Shown: in pieces, positions 12,515 to 34,108 of the stretch
Numbering within the stretch: the stretch's first letter is position 1
How the letters are laid out: each line of letters starts with the position of its first letter
Source of the DNA: an uncultured Elusimicrobiales bacterium
Lineage (GTDB): Bacteria > Elusimicrobiota > Elusimicrobia > Elusimicrobiales > Elusimicrobiaceae
Length of the DNA: 64,000 nucleotides
Direction of reading: 5' to 3'
NCBI GenBank assembly: GCA_944324685.1
Contig: CALUXG010000034.1
Coordinates: 1-64,000 of the forward strand
Position numbers and translations under genes: made by a program
Notes under the pieces: generated by a model
Seen by the model: the letters and a program-made list of their open reading frames with translations, nothing else
Told to the model about the DNA's origin: nothing
Databases searched by the model: none

Positions 12515-12970
12515 TTATCTTTCAGTCCACTTCAAATAACAAGCCGTCCCTACTTGACAGTCAACAGCGCCTAAGGCATTGCAAATCTTTGCATAGGCCG
12601 CACTTACGCCGGGTTTACAATAAACAGGCGGTTTGGGAAAATCTATCGTCTGTACAGCGATGAAACTGGGACCTTTTCTTCCGTTCGCCGCAATATCTAT
12701 ATGGCCATCGGCAAATTTAACAATATCATACGTATAATGCGACGAACCGGTCGGGAATTGCACGGTTAACAGATCTGCATTGTCCGTTAGTTCGCCGTTT
12801 TGCATATAATATAAATTTTCCGCTTCTGCTATATCATACAAAACGCTTAAGGCTTCGGCAGCACGGGCTTTTCCCACGGCTCTTTGATATTGCGGCAAAG
12901 CGATGGCCGCCAAAATGCCAATAATCAGCACCACAACCAACAGTTCAATTAAAGTAAAACCTTTTTTCAT
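12515..12970 (-). CDS. Type IV pilin-like protein (pseudopilin) 1
   Basis: 151 residues. A class III signal MKKG|FTLIELLVVVLIIGI gives prepilin-peptidase cleavage after Gly4 and Glu at mature position 5, followed by a hydrophobic helix to about residue 28. The globular C-terminal part is unlike known pilins and has four Cys (two possible disulfides). Elusimicrobiota encode many such PilE-like proteins; their role (pilus, secretion or competence) is mostly unknown. AGGAAG is the ribosome site. The N-terminus and the 90-nt upstream leader closely match those of the pseudopilin gene at 33641. No assembly genes are nearby. Confidence 0.9.
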   Translation of the reverse strand: MKKGFTLIELLVVVLIIGILAAIALPQYQRAVGKARAAEALSVLYDIAEAENLYYMQNGELTDNADLLTVQFPTGSSHYTYDIVKFADGHIDIAANGRKGPSFIAVQTIDFPKPPVYCKPGVSAAYAKICNALGAVDCQVGTACYLKWTER

Positions 12971-13060
12971 TTTTTTCTTCCTATAACTGCGTTTAATCGT
13001 TCAAAAACACGTATCAGCGGCGTTTGTTTTTCCGCCATGTATAGGGTATCAAAAAAAAAC
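12971..13060 (-). promoter_or_regulatory. Conserved pseudopilin leader, copy 1
   Basis: 90 nt directly upstream of pseudopilin 1. Read on the minus strand it runs T9, GATACCCTATACATGGCG, an A-rich loop, CGCCGCT, then GTGTTTTTGAACGATTA and the ribosome site. By eye it is close to 87% identical to positions 33552-33640, with one single-base gap. TATACA could be a -10 box. GGCG and CGCC can form a short hairpin. Confidence 0.75.
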
Positions 13061-13211
13061 AAATCAAGGCATATCCGTTTTTCAGCCAATAAACGGAAAC
13101 GGCATAACAATTCTGAAAACCATAGAAAGGACCGGCCAGCAAACGGACAAAAACTGCATTAGCCTCCCAGCCGCTTATCTTTTACTTTCACGCCATATCT
13201 ATACAAGCAGC

Positions 13212-16030: not shown

Positions 16031-17395
16031 GTGGAAACTCTTTCATCCGGCGATACGCTCGCCCCTATATTTCATGAAATAGAAACTATTTTAGGCAAAG
16101 ACACCTATGATATGTGGCTCCGGCCGACTGTATGTAAGTTTGAAAATCAAGTATTGTCCATACAGCTGCCAAACCTTCTCTGGCAAAAAACCATTCAATC
16201 CCGCTATGAACATATTATAAAAGACGCTTTTTTTAAGCATACCGGCATGGAAATCACCGTTTCTTACGTGATAAAAGAAATAAATACACAGCCGTCTATT
16301 ATACAGACACCGTCTGTCTCCGTATTTGACCATGAACCGGAAATAAAAGCAAATCCTTTTAACTCCCATTTGAATGATTCTTACAAATTTGACAATTTTA
16401 TAGAATCTCCATCAAACCGTCTTGCTTATAAAGCGGCTCAAGCGGCAGTAAACCAACCGGGAAACCGCATTAATAATCCCTTGCTTATTTATTCCACCCC
16501 GGGTTTGGGAAAAACACATTTATTGCATGCTATCGGAAATCAGATTTTACAACAAAATCCCGCGGCAAGAGTATTATATATGTCAGGCGAAGAATTCGTC
16601 AGCGAATATATAGAATCTCTGCAAAACAAATCTTCAGACAGTTTCCGTAAAAAATACCGTTCTTTAGACTGTCTGTTAATGGATGATATTCAGTTTGTGG
16701 CCGGAAAAACAGCCAGCGAAGGAGAATTTTTTTATACGTTTAATGCTTTGTTTGAAAACGGACGTCAAATTGTACTGTCCTCGGACCGTACTCCGCAGGA
16801 ATTAGGCTTGGAAGAACGCTTATCCTCCCGTTTGCTCTCAGGTATTATTACGGAAATAAAAAAGCCTAATTTAGAAACGCGTATCGCTATTTTGCGACAA
16901 AAAAGGGACGCTATTCATTTTGACATAGGCGATGACGTTATCGCTTTTATAGCGGAGGGGATTCAAACCAATGTGCGGGAATTGGAAGGTTCTCTTTTTC
17001 AATTGGTATTTTATTGCAGTACGCACGGCGTCGTCCCCACGATTTCCATCGCCAAGGTTGTGTTGGCCGACATTTTGACGCAAGAAGAACAGCGCATGGC
17101 GGTTAACGTAAACACGATTAAAAAAATCGTCGGAAAACATTTTAAGATAGATATCACAGATTTCACGTCAAAAAGAAAAACACAATCTGTGGCGTGGCCG
17201 CGTCAAATTGCCATGTTTTTATGCACGGAACTGACGGATATGTCTTTGCCGGAAATCGGACGTGAATTTAACAGAGACCACAGCACCGTCGTACATGCAA
17301 GAGATTTGGTAAAAGAAAAAATCAAGACGGATCCGTTTTTTTCCGCGGAAATAAACCAAATAATCAGCGATATTAAATCTGTGGATAAAAAATAA
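16031..17395 (+). CDS. dnaA: Chromosomal replication initiator DnaA
   Basis: 454-residue AAA+ initiator starting at GTG with AGGCGGA upstream. Domain I covers about residues 1-90 and domain II is short. Domain III has Walker [14 protein letters not shown] near residue 157, where the usual GGVGLGKT is varied, and Walker [13 protein letters not shown]. The domain IV signature [13 protein letters not shown] near residue 420 reads DnaA boxes. It opens oriC when bound to ATP. A perfect DnaA box is embedded at the end of the gene (17380-17388). Confidence 0.98.
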
Positions 17396-17565
17396 AAACT
17401 GTGGAATAAGAAGTAGATAACAAAAGAAAACCTTTTTTTGGAAATATAAATGTGTACAATGTGCAGAACTCTGTAAAGTTACCCACAGAACACAAAATAG
17501 ATTTGTATAGTACTGTAAACAAAATCCACATTATAAACAGGATAATATAATTAGGAATATAAAGT
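17380..17565. other. Candidate oriC, dnaA-dnaN intergenic DnaA-box cluster
   Basis: A perfect box TGTGGATAA (17380-17388) is followed by TGTGGAATA (17400-17408), TTACCCACA (17478-17486, one mismatch) and AAATCCACA (17522-17530, two mismatches), in an AT-rich spacer of about 170 nt. Clusters on both sides of dnaA resemble the bipartite origin of Bacillus and Helicobacter. The dnaN promoter must also lie here (TATAAT-like sequence near 17540). Confidence 0.6.
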
Positions 17566-18678
17566 ATGAAAATAAATATTACTAAAGAAACCCTTTTGGA
17601 AGGTATACAGGTTATTTCCTCAGGAGTCGCCTCCCGCACGACGATGCCCATTTTGCATAATTTTTTAATGGAAACGCAGGACAATGGAAAAGTAAAATTG
17701 GTCCGCACAGACATGGAAATGGCCGTTGTCCATTATATTAACGCCGAAATAGAAGAAGCAGGCAGTATTACGGTACCCACAAAAGAATTTTCAGAAATCA
17801 TCAAAAATTTGCCCGACGGAAAAGAAATTAATTTATTTACTGGTGATAATAATAAATTCCATATTAAATCAGGCAAAAGCAAATTTTGGGTGATTGGTAC
17901 TTCCAAATCAGAATATCCTCCTATTCCTGAAATTGAAAAAACAAACACTATTTCCTTAAATTCCCAGACTTTACAGCAGATGATTGATAAAACGGTTTTT
18001 TCTGCTTCCACGCAGGAAACGCGCTATATATTGAACGGGTTGTTATGGAATAATACGGCTGAAAATTTTGAAGTGGTAGCCACGGATGGAGGTCGTTTGG
18101 CAGTGGCCAGCCATGAGGCATTGGCCGGAACGGGGGAATTTAAGATTATTATTCCAACCAAAATTTTGAATGAAGTGGTTCGTTTTATTTCTTTGTCTAA
18201 ACCGGACAAAGAAGAGAAAATAGATGTGTATGTCGCTTCCAATCAGGTAAGTTTTAAGATAAAAGAAACGACTTTTATTTCTCGTTTAATAGAAGGAAAT
18301 TTTCCAAATTACAAACAAGTAATTCCGACAAAGAAAAATATATTTTTTGAAGCGTTTACCAAAGAATTGCTTGCTTCTACGCGCCGCGCCGCCTTATGCT
18401 CTGGTGAATTTGGAAGTACAGTCAAGTTTCATCTGGAAAACAACAGTATGACGGTTTCTTCCACTTCACAAAATATGGAATTTACCGATGAATTGCCCAT
18501 AGAATATACGCAGGAAGCGTTTGATTGTGCTTTTAGGCCGCAGTATATTATTGACGTATTAAAAAATATAGACAGCGAAAAAGTGTCTTTTTCTTTTATT
18601 AATGCTTCCCAGCCTGTACTGATCGTGCCCATTGGGAATGATGAGGTGAAATACGTCATTATGCCCGTACAAATATAA
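17566..18678 (+). CDS. dnaN: DNA polymerase III sliding clamp (beta subunit)
   Basis: 370 residues, full length for the three-domain clamp that rings DNA and tethers polymerase III. N-terminus MKINITKETLLEGIQVISSG; the C-terminus ends DEVKYVIMPVQI, close to the canonical VxxxMPMR/MPVQ ending. It follows dnaA and has AGGA 9 nt before the ATG. The next gene starts 1 nt after its stop. Confidence 0.97.
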   Translation: MKINITKETLLEGIQVISSGVASRTTMPILHNFLMETQDNGKVKLVRTDMEMAVVHYINAEIEEAGSITVPTKEFSEIIKNLPDGKEINLFTGDNNKFHIKSGKSKFWVIGTSKSEYPPIPEIEKTNTISLNSQTLQQMIDKTVFSASTQETRYILNGLLWNNTAENFEVVATDGGRLAVASHEALAGTGEFKIIIPTKILNEVVRFISLSKPDKEEKIDVYVASNQVSFKIKETTFISRLIEGNFPNYKQVIPTKKNIFFEAFTKELLASTRRAALCSGEFGSTVKFHLENNSMTVSSTSQNMEFTDELPIEYTQEAFDCAFRPQYIIDVLKNIDSEKVSFSFINASQPVLIVPIGNDEVKYVIMPVQI

Positions 18679-18679
18679 C

Positions 18680-21464
<2,785 letters not shown>

Positions 21465-21506
21465 TAACGGATAGTTGAAAGAACGGTTTAATGGGAGTTT
21501 AAGACA

Positions 21507-24038
21507 ATGAGCGAAGAAATGACCGGTGCGGCCGCCGAGCCGCAGCAAAACAATGTAGATTTGTTTGGCAATATACAGCAGCGCGATATTGCCAATGAAA
21601 TGCGTTCGTATTATATTGATTATGCCATGAGCGTGATTGTGGGCCGTGCGCTGCCGGACGTGCGTGACGGGTTAAAACCCGTTCACCGCCGCGTGCTGTA
21701 TTCCATGAACGAAATGGGCCTTAAATATAATAAGCCCTACAAAAAATCCGCCCGCGTAGTAGGTGATGTGTTGGGTAAATATCATCCGCATGGAGATATT
21801 GCTGTTTATGACACGTTGGTGCGCATGGTGCAGGATTTTTCGCTGCGCCAGCCGCTGATTGACGGACAGGGCAACTTTGGTTCTATAGACGGAGATTCTG
21901 CCGCGGCTATGCGTTATACGGAATGCCGCTTGCAGCGTATTTCCGATGAAATGCTGAATGATTTGGATAAAGATACCGTCAAAATGATTCCTAACTATGA
22001 CGGATCTTTGATGGAACCCTCGGTTTTGCCGGCCAAATTGCCGGCGCTGTTGGTCAACGGTTCTTCCGGTATTGCCGTAGGCATGGCGACCAATATTCCG
22101 ACGCATAACTTAAGCGAGGTATGCGACGGTATTGTAGCCTATATTAAAAATCCGGCCATTACGACCAAGGAAATGATGAAAATCATTAAAGGGCCGGATT
22201 TCCCCACCGGCGCCATTATACGCGGCACCAAAGGCATACATGATTATTTTGAGACGGGCCGCGGCAGCGTACGCGTGCAGGCCGCCACGGAAATTGAAGA
22301 ACGTAAAAACGGACGTCAGGCCATTGTGGTAACGGCTATTCCGTATCAAGTCAACAAAACTTCTTTAATTGAAAGTATTGTCGCCTTGGTGCGTGATAAA
22401 AAAATAACGGATATTTCCGATATCCGCGACGAGTCGGATCGCCGCGGCATGCGTTTGGTCATTGAAATTAAACGCGACGGAAATGCGCAAGTCGTATTAA
22501 ACCATCTCTTTAAGCACACGCAGCTGCAAACGTCTTTTGCGGTGAATATGCTGGCCATTGTGGACGGCCGCCCTCGCATTTTATCCCTCAAAGACGTGAT
22601 GAAAGCTTACGTCAAACACCGCCGTGAGATTGTTACCAACCGCACGAAATTTGACTTGAACAAAGCCCAGCGCCGCGAACATATTTTATCCGGTTTGCTT
22701 ATTGCGATTGCAAATATGGATGAGGTGGTGGCTATCATTCGCAACAGTCAAGACGCCGCCGCCGCCAAAGTGGCTTTAATGGGCAAATTCAAGCTTTCCG
22801 AAGTACAGGCGCAGGCCATTTTGGATATGCGGCTGCATCAGCTGACGCAGCTGTCTTCTGCGGCTATTGAGCAAGAACAGAAAGATTTGCTGAAGTTGAT
22901 AGCACAGCTGCAAGGCATTTTGGCGGATCCGCAGAAAATTTTGGATATTATCGTCAATGAATTGCTGGAGCTGAAGAAAAATTACGGAGACGAACGCCGT
23001 ACGGAGATTGGACCGGACATGACGGAGCTGTCCATGGAAGACCTTATTGAAAAAGAAGATGTGGTCATCACCATTTCCAATGACGGTTATGCCAAACGCA
23101 TTCCTCTTTCCACGTATAAGAGTCAAAACCGCGGCGGCAAAGGCATTATAGGCGGCAAGACGAAAGAAGAAGATTTCATGGAACATTTGTTTATTACTTC
23201 TTCGCACGCCACTATTTTAATGTTTACCAACCGCGGCCGCGTGTTTGCATTGCGCGCTTTTGAAATACCCGAAGGAACACGAATGTCCAAAGGCAAAGCG
23301 TTGGTCAATTTGCTGCAGTTGGTGGGAGAAGAAAAAGTTACCTCCGCTTTGGCCATAGAAGACTTTAATCAAATACAACAGGATTCTTCCGGACAAAAAG
23401 CCTGTCTGATTATGTGCACCCGTCTGGGCAGCATCAAGCGCGTGGATTTAGACGCGTTTACCAACATACGCAAGAGCGGTATTATCGCTATTGGTTTGGA
23501 AGAAGGGGATGTGCTGATCAGCGTGCAAATGTCTTATGGAAACGGCGATATTATCATCGCTACGAAGTTCGGCAAATCTATTCGTTTTGATGAAAACGAA
23601 GTACGCATTATGGGCCGTCCGGCCAAAGGCGTGCGCGGCATAACGCTTTCCAAAGGCGATGAAGTAGTGGGTATGGAACAGGCCCCCAACAATGCGCTGC
23701 AGCCGGACGTATTGTCCGTGTGTGAAAACGGATACGGCAAACGCACGGCTTTCGGCGAGTATAAACGCCAGCACCGCAGCGGCATGGGCATTATTACCAT
23801 CAAAACCACGGAACGCAACGGCAACGTCGTAGGCATTAAGATGGTGGACGAACGCAAAGACCTGATGGTCGTAACGGAAAAAGGAATGACCATCCGTATC
23901 CGCTGTGAAGAAATACGTTCCGTCGGACGCAATGCGCAAGGGGTGCGTTTGGTCAAGCTGGAAGAAGGCGACAAAATCGCCCGTATCGCTCCTGTCGTCA
24001 AAGACGACGAAGAAGAGGTTCAGACGGAAGATAAGTAG
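21507..24038 (+). CDS. gyrA: DNA gyrase subunit A
   Basis: 843 residues. The catalytic Tyr137 is in [11 protein letters not shown]. The winged-helix and tower domains come first, and the C-terminal beta-pinwheel has the GyrA box (QNRGGKG near residue 538). The quinolone region reads [10 protein letters not shown]: Ile98 takes the place of E. coli Ser83, while the Asp equivalent to Asp87 is kept. It introduces negative supercoils with GyrB. It lies 42 nt after gyrB and ends in a strong terminator. Confidence 0.98.
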
Positions 24039-33472: not shown

Positions 33473-33551
33473 TATGGTAGTATGATGGCACCGGCGTCCA
33501 CCGCGGTGCCGTTGCCGTTTTTTGCTGAAAGACGCCCGAGCATGGACTCGC

Positions 33552-33640
33552 TTTTTTTTTTGATCCCCTATACATGGCGAAAAACAAACGCCGCTAAGAC
33601 GTGTTTTTGAACGATTAGATACCATTGTAGGGAGAAAAAA
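33552..33640 (+). promoter_or_regulatory. Conserved pseudopilin leader, copy 2
   Basis: 89 nt directly upstream of pseudopilin 2, nearly the same as the complement of 12971-13060: T10, GATCCCCTATACATGGCG, CGCCGCT, GTGTTTTTGAACGATTA, then AGGGAG and the ATG. From the AAAACAAACG word to the ATG both copies have the same length with about 9 differences in 70. TATACA is a possible -10. Confidence 0.75.
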
Positions 33641-34108
33641 ATGAGAAGAGGATTTACCCTAATTGAACTGTTGGTCGTGGTGCTTATCATTGGCATTTTG
33701 GCTGCCATTGCGCTGCCGCAGTATGAAAGAGCCGTCCATTCCGCCCGCATGCGGGAAGTGTCCGTCAGAACCAAATCTTTAGAAAACGCGTTGGATATGT
33801 ATAAAATGTCCACGGGCGATTCCTTTCAAGGGGAAGCCGCAGATTTGGTGCATATTTATGAGGACGTGTTTGCCGGTTTGACGTTTGACGGAACGTATTA
33901 TCACTCTAAAAACATCATGTATGGTATCGATAATTATAAATGGATCGCCATCTATACGGATGCAAACGGGGAATGGATAACCGAAATGGGCGGAGTCAAA
34001 CAGGATGACGGCACATGGTTTCGGTATTGTTATCATGAATCGGATTTGGGGGAATTTTTATGCAGCCAGATGGAATCTCTCGGTTGGGATAGTACCAGCG
34101 GTTTCTAA
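33641..34108 (+). CDS. Type IV pilin-like protein (pseudopilin) 2
   Basis: 155 residues. The class III signal MRRG|FTLIELLVVVLIIGI is cut before Phe, with Glu5, and the helix runs to ALPQYERAV. The globular part is acidic (SFQGEAADLVHIYEDVF and so on), has two Cys near the C-terminus and shows no similarity to the C-terminal part of pseudopilin 1. It has its own leader and terminator and so forms a single-gene unit. Whether it builds a pilus, joins a type II-like secretion fibre or acts alone is unknown. Confidence 0.9.
   Translation: MRRGFTLIELLVVVLIIGILAAIALPQYERAVHSARMREVSVRTKSLENALDMYKMSTGDSFQGEAADLVHIYEDVFAGLTFDGTYYHSKNIMYGIDNYKWIAIYTDANGEWITEMGGVKQDDGTWFRYCYHESDLGEFLCSQMESLGWDSTSGF

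Follow-up and report, generated by a model that had tools for sequence, protein, structure and literature searches.

A predicted promoter module with a variable poly-T spacer precedes dozens of pilin-like genes in an uncultured Elusimicrobiales bacterium

Why should two unlinked pilin-like genes share nearly the same non-coding leader? The question arises in the first 64,000 nucleotides of contig CALUXG010000034.1 (assembly GCA_944324685.1) from an uncultured Elusimicrobiales bacterium, a stretch that we call the window. The leaders at 33552-33640 (forward strand) and 12971-13059 (reverse strand) align from a T-run through to the ATG with about 87 % identity and a single 1-nt gap, as the first-pass annotation of the window had claimed, and the three shared words quoted there were all found. 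A longer alignment of both leaders from the genome search gives 86.7 % over 127 nt, and GTGTTTTTGAACGATTA has exactly two occurrences within the window. The T-runs are unequal, T10 in the 33552 copy and T9 in the other. We find that the leader is very probably the promoter module of a pilin regulon, as predicted from its copies and their surroundings.

Both genes downstream of the leaders score above cut-off for the N_methyl prepilin motif (PF07963). The statement that their proteins are alike only over the first ~35 residues stands in so far as near-identical DNA ends at about codon 28-33; the C-termini, though divergent, belong to one pilin-like family and are not unrelated. The T-run had also been taken as the start of the element, and this has to be corrected: homology runs on 5' through a −35 box at 33543-33548 and, about 20-40 nt beyond it, a weaker box. 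In the module alignment identity is 0.57 at 20-40 nt 5' of the T-run and reaches background level past 80 nt.

To place the pair in its genome we searched 1,397,896 bases in 49 contigs (95 % complete) with the leader plus N-terminus and obtained about 32 copies at E below 1e-11, so that the element is not limited to a pair. Nearly all copies read into a protein starting M(K/R)xGFTLIELLVVVLIIGIL, followed by divergent C-termini. The genome holds 76 N_methyl genes, and 57 of them have a same-strand T-run of at least 8 at no more than 520 nt upstream, which bears out the proposal of a common promoter and leader for a family of pilin-like genes; we take this to be the chief role of the element. 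The 57 tracts comprise 2 T8 (one of them doubtful as a member of the same module), 3 T9, 8 T10, 4 T11, 29 T12, 6 T13, 2 T14, 2 T15 and 1 T17. Conversely, 61 of the 72 tracts of T9 or longer genome-wide belong to the module; 55 of these precede N_methyl genes and 6 are cut by a contig end or lack a pilin start. The other 11 are all T9 save one T11 terminator, the sole tract of T10 or longer outside the module. T9 words in the window are rarer than in shuffles (5 observed, 16.3 expected). The N_methyl genes without a poly-T promoter include a cluster adjoining an ATPase of the type II secretion system type on contig C18.

Some module-like sequences depart from this pattern. Two copies are likely decayed (L020, L032), one pilin stopping after codon 27 and one module having no pilin start. 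At G000:C33:25206 (L162) a T9 lies between TTGACTCC and GCTAAAGTT, 5' of a non-pilin open reading frame with a signal-like N-terminus; it is possibly a related promoter outside the pilin family.

The role of the T-run as a promoter spacer was overlooked in the first-pass annotation. In the copy alignment TTGACT or TTGATT stands 5' of the T-run and TGATACCCT 3' of it, and the consensus of the copies gives the layout −35 TTGAYT, (C/T)G-T12-GA and an extended −10 TGnTAnnnT, with a spacer that is usually 16 bp. Related species have TTGACA-CG-T12-GC-TACAAT or TTGACT-TG-T12-GG-TACAAT at the same position, and near-consensus −10s occur at the matching place in other species (TGCTACAAT, TGGTACAAT). 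Because these relatives show near-consensus −35 and extended −10 boxes around T12, we read the T-run as the spacer of the predicted promoter. The spacer is 16 in 27 of the 53 parsable promoters of this genome, and interrupted tracts (TTCT10, TTTCT9, TCT12) hold the total at 17-18. An alternative −10 at TATACA was dropped, as the fixed-spacing TAnnnT aligns with the near-consensus −10s elsewhere and puts the ATG of a second class of modules, described below, at +1. The assignments for the two window copies are as follows.

33508..33530, forward strand: weakly conserved box 5' of the −35, of the CCGTTNCCGTTTNTTTGCTGAAA type (alignment of paralogous modules)
33543..33548, forward strand: predicted −35 hexamer TGGACT; consensus TTGACT/TTGATT (consensus of paralogs and other species)
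33552..33561, forward strand: T10 homopolymer, the bulk of the −35/−10 spacer (15 nt here)
33564..33569, forward strand: predicted −10 hexamer TCCCCT; consensus TACCCT with extended TGA upstream (homologous to TACAAT in G033 and G006)
33576..33640, forward strand: predicted 5' untranslated region with +1 at G33576 and Shine-Dalgarno GGGAG, up to the ATG (from −10 spacing and the class-2 ATG position)
33576..33592, forward strand: possible 5' terminal hairpin GGCG-N9-CGCC (compensatory changes; short, weak support)
33641..34108, forward strand: orphan pilin-like gene, 155 aa, N_methyl PF07963
33641..33730, forward strand: 5' coding part of the shared module, about 30 codons (paralog identity falls after about codon 30)
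13062..13067, reverse strand: predicted −35 hexamer TTGATT of the second module
13051..13059, reverse strand: T9 homopolymer of the second module (spacer 13 nt)
13043..13048, reverse strand: predicted −10 hexamer TACCCT of the second module
12971..13036, reverse strand: predicted 5' untranslated region of the second module (same grounds as for the first)
12515..12970, reverse strand: orphan pilin-like gene, 151 aa, N_methyl and ComP_DUS (PF16732)

The modules fall into two classes. Class-1 modules have an untranslated region of about 63 nt up to the Shine-Dalgarno sequence, then a near-constant N-terminal coding part; their predicted start is the G of GGCG (33576 in the first window copy). In the 20 class-2 modules (GATAAATTTTGTTTATG) the ATG coincides with the predicted +1, 13-14 nt past the T-run; 19 of the 20 have a frame that stays open over 21-166 residues to the pilin motif. 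This fixed ATG spacing is independent support for the assignment of the boxes. The class-2 ATG (20 loci, e.g. L120, L121, L125) is predicted to be leaderless and sits within a perfect palindrome (GATAAATTTTGTTCATGAACAAAATTTATC). Of the proteins, which carry 21-166 extra residues ahead of the pilin motif, the long ones contain in-frame palindromic repeats (VILRSCNSGSQP, GCRVKASRHDDNI).

The module is widespread among relatives, of which the named ones are metagenome-assembled genomes of uncultured Elusimicrobiales and of Elusimicrobium. CTTGNNNNGT9 was found in 26 of 37 genus genomes, with up to 100 copies (G006), and practically none in the sister family; a reversed-motif control was near zero. 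The genus has 22 to at least 112 N_methyl genes per genome and the sister family 3-11. Each of the 20 T-tracts sampled from G006 and G033 stands before a pilin motif, and two long G066 contigs have 24 of their 25 tracts in that position. Many matches, all before pilin-like genes, were what the first-pass annotation had named as support for a regulon or cassette, and the copies in this genome and the sampled tracts of the two other species agree with it. Certain pilin-rich species (G011, G015, G032, G004) are without the T-module and have other leaders instead. A search of viral contigs for the promoter pattern and for a second pilin-leader RNA, described below, found none.

Is the leader conserved by selection or merely recently copied? 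Mean leader identity from T-run to ATG is 82 %, compared with 38 % at the 4-fold sites among codons 1-25 of these genes, and the leader is the more conserved in 431 of 435 gene pairs. Because leader identity is far above that of 4-fold sites, the leader is under constraint and recent duplication is excluded as the cause. Judged by these alignments, the module is kept by selection on DNA or RNA and is practically confined to pilin-like genes.

We also asked whether the length of the T-run is itself stable. Of ten module pairs with at least 95 % identity in the sequence around the tract, nine differ in its length; these pairs involve few genes and are not independent. Over 6449 bases, contig C55 of G010 (L118) is 99.4 % identical to C46 of this genome; two indels separate them, and one is T9/T10 in the pilin promoter. 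The rest of G010 is far more distant from this genome, and L118 probably belongs to this species and was misbinned. A 127-bp overlap of two contig ends shows no difference other than T12 versus T11. By such comparisons of assembled sequence, the T-run in this species alters its length much faster than its surroundings change.

The reading that we favour, by a modest margin over even chances, is that of a pilin regulon with slippage-prone spacer promoters, which together would make up a large family of contingency promoters like those of porA, opc and vlp. As in loci of that type, the homopolymer is situated between −35 and −10, judged by consensus, and the products are pilin-type N_methyl proteins, for which the family suggests a surface location. 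Since the T-run would set the −35/−10 distance, with an optimum near 16 bp at T12, each pilin could be switched separately, slippage raising, lowering or silencing its promoter. Cells within a population would thus display different pilin sets. Whether slippage does act as an expression switch is about even on the present comparisons.

Several points besides the dependence among the ten pairs weigh against such switching promoters. The boxes were assigned from consensus alone, and homopolymer lengths in metagenome assemblies may be off by one. Most tracts are exactly T12 in G033, G006, G066 and G076, and where G066 and G076 were compared, at 7 loci, the tract is T12 in both species every time; this constancy across species argues for strong stabilising selection. 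The prevalence of T12, together with the total length held in interrupted tracts, is what one would expect if the promoter of the regulon were static, the poly-T spacer being fixed near 12 as a feature of geometry or recognition (RNA polymerase or a regulator would then read a stiff A/T tract), and the length changes tolerated noise with no switch. We consider this explanation the strongest of the rivals but still rather unlikely. In this species only 29 of 57 tracts are T12, with a range of 8 to 17; spacers of 11-14 nt are expected to make poor promoters; and a pure 12-nt homopolymer is an unusual device for a fixed spacer. A T12 optimum with frequent slips would fit both the variation within the species and the constancy across species.

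Besides selection on the leader, copying takes place too. Several genes are 0.93-0.97 identical over codons 4-28, synonymous sites included, and unrelated after about codon 30, and C-terminal similarity is not tracked by leader similarity (Mantel r 0.10, p 0.15). Just after atpC this genome has a pilin, G066 and G006 have different poly-T pilins, and the other 27 relatives read have none. As read from such alignments, the 5' part of the module is copied between genes, and the earlier suggestion of a cassette-like duplication receives partial support from the shared leader and ~28 codons on unrelated C-termini and from the variable occupancy after atpC. These findings, and a contig end that joins two alternative pilin contigs, would also be expected if the module served as a recombination platform, with leader and about 30 codons forming a 5' cassette that is kept alike by gene conversion and to which new C-termini are joined, or that spreads as a unit. 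As the account of what the leader is for, we regard this as improbable: most pairs combine diverged 4-fold sites (mean 0.38) with a conserved leader (0.82), and because the 4-fold sites are diverged in most pairs, conversion alone is insufficient for the conservation of the leader. Recombination is probably a contributor and not the function.

The contig end in question is the flank of G000 C17:1-127, which shares 127 bases with two pilin contigs (C21:1-127 and C15:18198-18324). On C45 the same pilin start is found, inverted, at both contig ends. Rearrangement, a strain mixture or assembly breaks at repeats are possible explanations of the ends of C17/C21/C15 and C45.

Another candidate is a cis-acting RNA element (an attenuator, a riboswitch-like element or translational control) as the main reason for the conservation, and the first-pass annotation had counted one RNA element among its suggestions. 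A part of this survives in the 4-bp 5' GGCG/CGCC hairpin, with 92 % of cells paired and compensatory change in 3 of 4 pairs (4 compensatory cells), which is weak support. RNAalifold proposes a longer, long-range stem as well, largely 5' of the predicted transcription start. Folds of single leaders are unremarkable, with z-scores of about −1, and an Rfam search of the window and leaders returned only a tRNA in the window and no match to the leader. The leader 3' of the promoter is wholly different in other species that have the same promoter, and the class-2 modules appear leaderless. RNA structure as the main function was set aside, and we give it a low probability.

A second, different pilin leader was seen in G028, G006, G023, G032 and G026. 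It consists of a structured RNA of about 225 nt that has an intrinsic terminator at its end and possibly an antiterminator that competes with it (AACAGTCG/CGGCTGTT), at the following loci.

L054:1262-1495, L057:1272-1499, L086:94-328 and L198:210-436, forward strand: second-leader loci
L053:1632-1852, L196:122-341, L199:138-384 and L197:125-334, reverse strand: second-leader loci

Across 8 sequences compensatory changes occur in 33 of 64 pairs, and none of 500 shuffles was as good. Seven of the eight loci, all but L053, were searched against Rfam and gave no match. The window yielded no copy of the second leader, and only weak partial matches turned up in about 720 kb of G066 and G076. By its predicted structure it looks like an undescribed attenuator or riboswitch-like element.

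Finally, that leader and N-terminus were duplicated once in the recent past and that the shared leader is what is left of this, as the 87 % identity of the two window copies might suggest and as would have followed had there been no other copies, is refuted by the ~32 close copies here, the copies in many related genomes and leader conservation far above that of synonymous sites.

The modules also show a bias in orientation. A dnaA, dnaN, gyrB, gyrA cluster at 16031-24038 of the window and a flip of GC skew near 16 kb indicate a probable replication origin just upstream of 16031. Both window pilins point away from the origin region, one on each side, i.e. with replication. On contigs C1 and C3 of G066 (L236-L255) all 25 modules lie on the G-rich strand, compared with 151 of 311 other genes (p 1.4e-8). 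Module pairs on the same contig share a strand in 43 of 47 cases here, 211 of 215 in G066, 71 of 80 in G033 and 99 of 100 in six other genomes. Poly-T pilin modules are almost always on the leading strand, and this suggests a constraint such as replication-transcription conflict, repeat-driven inversion or the mode of insertion.

How does the family compare with systems already described? The silent pilS copies of Neisseria have neither promoter nor start. The pilin repertoire here resembles pilE/pilS in its constant N-terminus and variable remainder, but the copies have a predicted promoter, a Shine-Dalgarno sequence, a start codon and a full gene, and are therefore not silent-cassette donors of the Neisseria type. 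The fim2 and fim3 promoters of Bordetella pertussis serve fimbrial-type subunit genes, as ours appear to; unlike ours, they have a C tract, concern few genes and depend on an activator. The vlp genes of Mycoplasma hyorhinis combine a conserved 5' region with a divergent 3' region. Within the same phylum, Herlemann et al. in 2009 reportedly noted about 60 pilE-like genes in Elusimicrobium minutum, a similar expansion of orphan pilin-like genes of unknown function. We are aware of no published account of a common promoter or poly-T module in that species, nor of an earlier explanation of the expansion in this group. To our knowledge there is no precedent for so many loci, for their specificity to pilins or for their leading-strand orientation.

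In Neisseria, porA, fetA and opc are established cases of an unstable homopolymer between −10 and −35 (PMC2791445). The family described here is like them in having a homopolymer at that position before genes for probable surface proteins, a likeness of layout read from sequence, and unlike them in that they have G or C tracts at few single genes, compared with T tracts at about 57 paralogous pilin genes in a 1.4-Mb genome. Each promoter region of the M. hyorhinis vlp genes bears a homopolymeric A tract, and vlp is likewise a multigene surface protein family with a homopolymer-bearing promoter for each gene (PMC10502178); the few vlp lipoprotein genes are clustered, with a sense-strand A tract, unlike the dozens of scattered pilin genes with a T tract. 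A published account of B. pertussis fim3 describes a single C deletion in the promoter tract that altered phenotype (PMC10172299).

For the genus as a whole we tentatively propose, at somewhat less than even confidence, that many species of these gut bacteria, with genomes of 1.1-1.8 Mb, have from dozens up to about 100 pilin-like genes at scattered sites, each gene with its own slippage-prone poly-T promoter and almost always on the leading strand, and so change the combination of pilins expressed. By its sequence the promoter is a simple marker with which the entire family can be picked out of any genome in the group. A shared promoter with a length-variable spacer also raises questions that can be tested: whether the genes form one regulon, whether they switch individually, and whether they make up a variable surface coat. 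If the proposal is true, the promoter-spacer contingency loci would form a very large set, and copying of a module of promoter plus N-terminus would have spread them.
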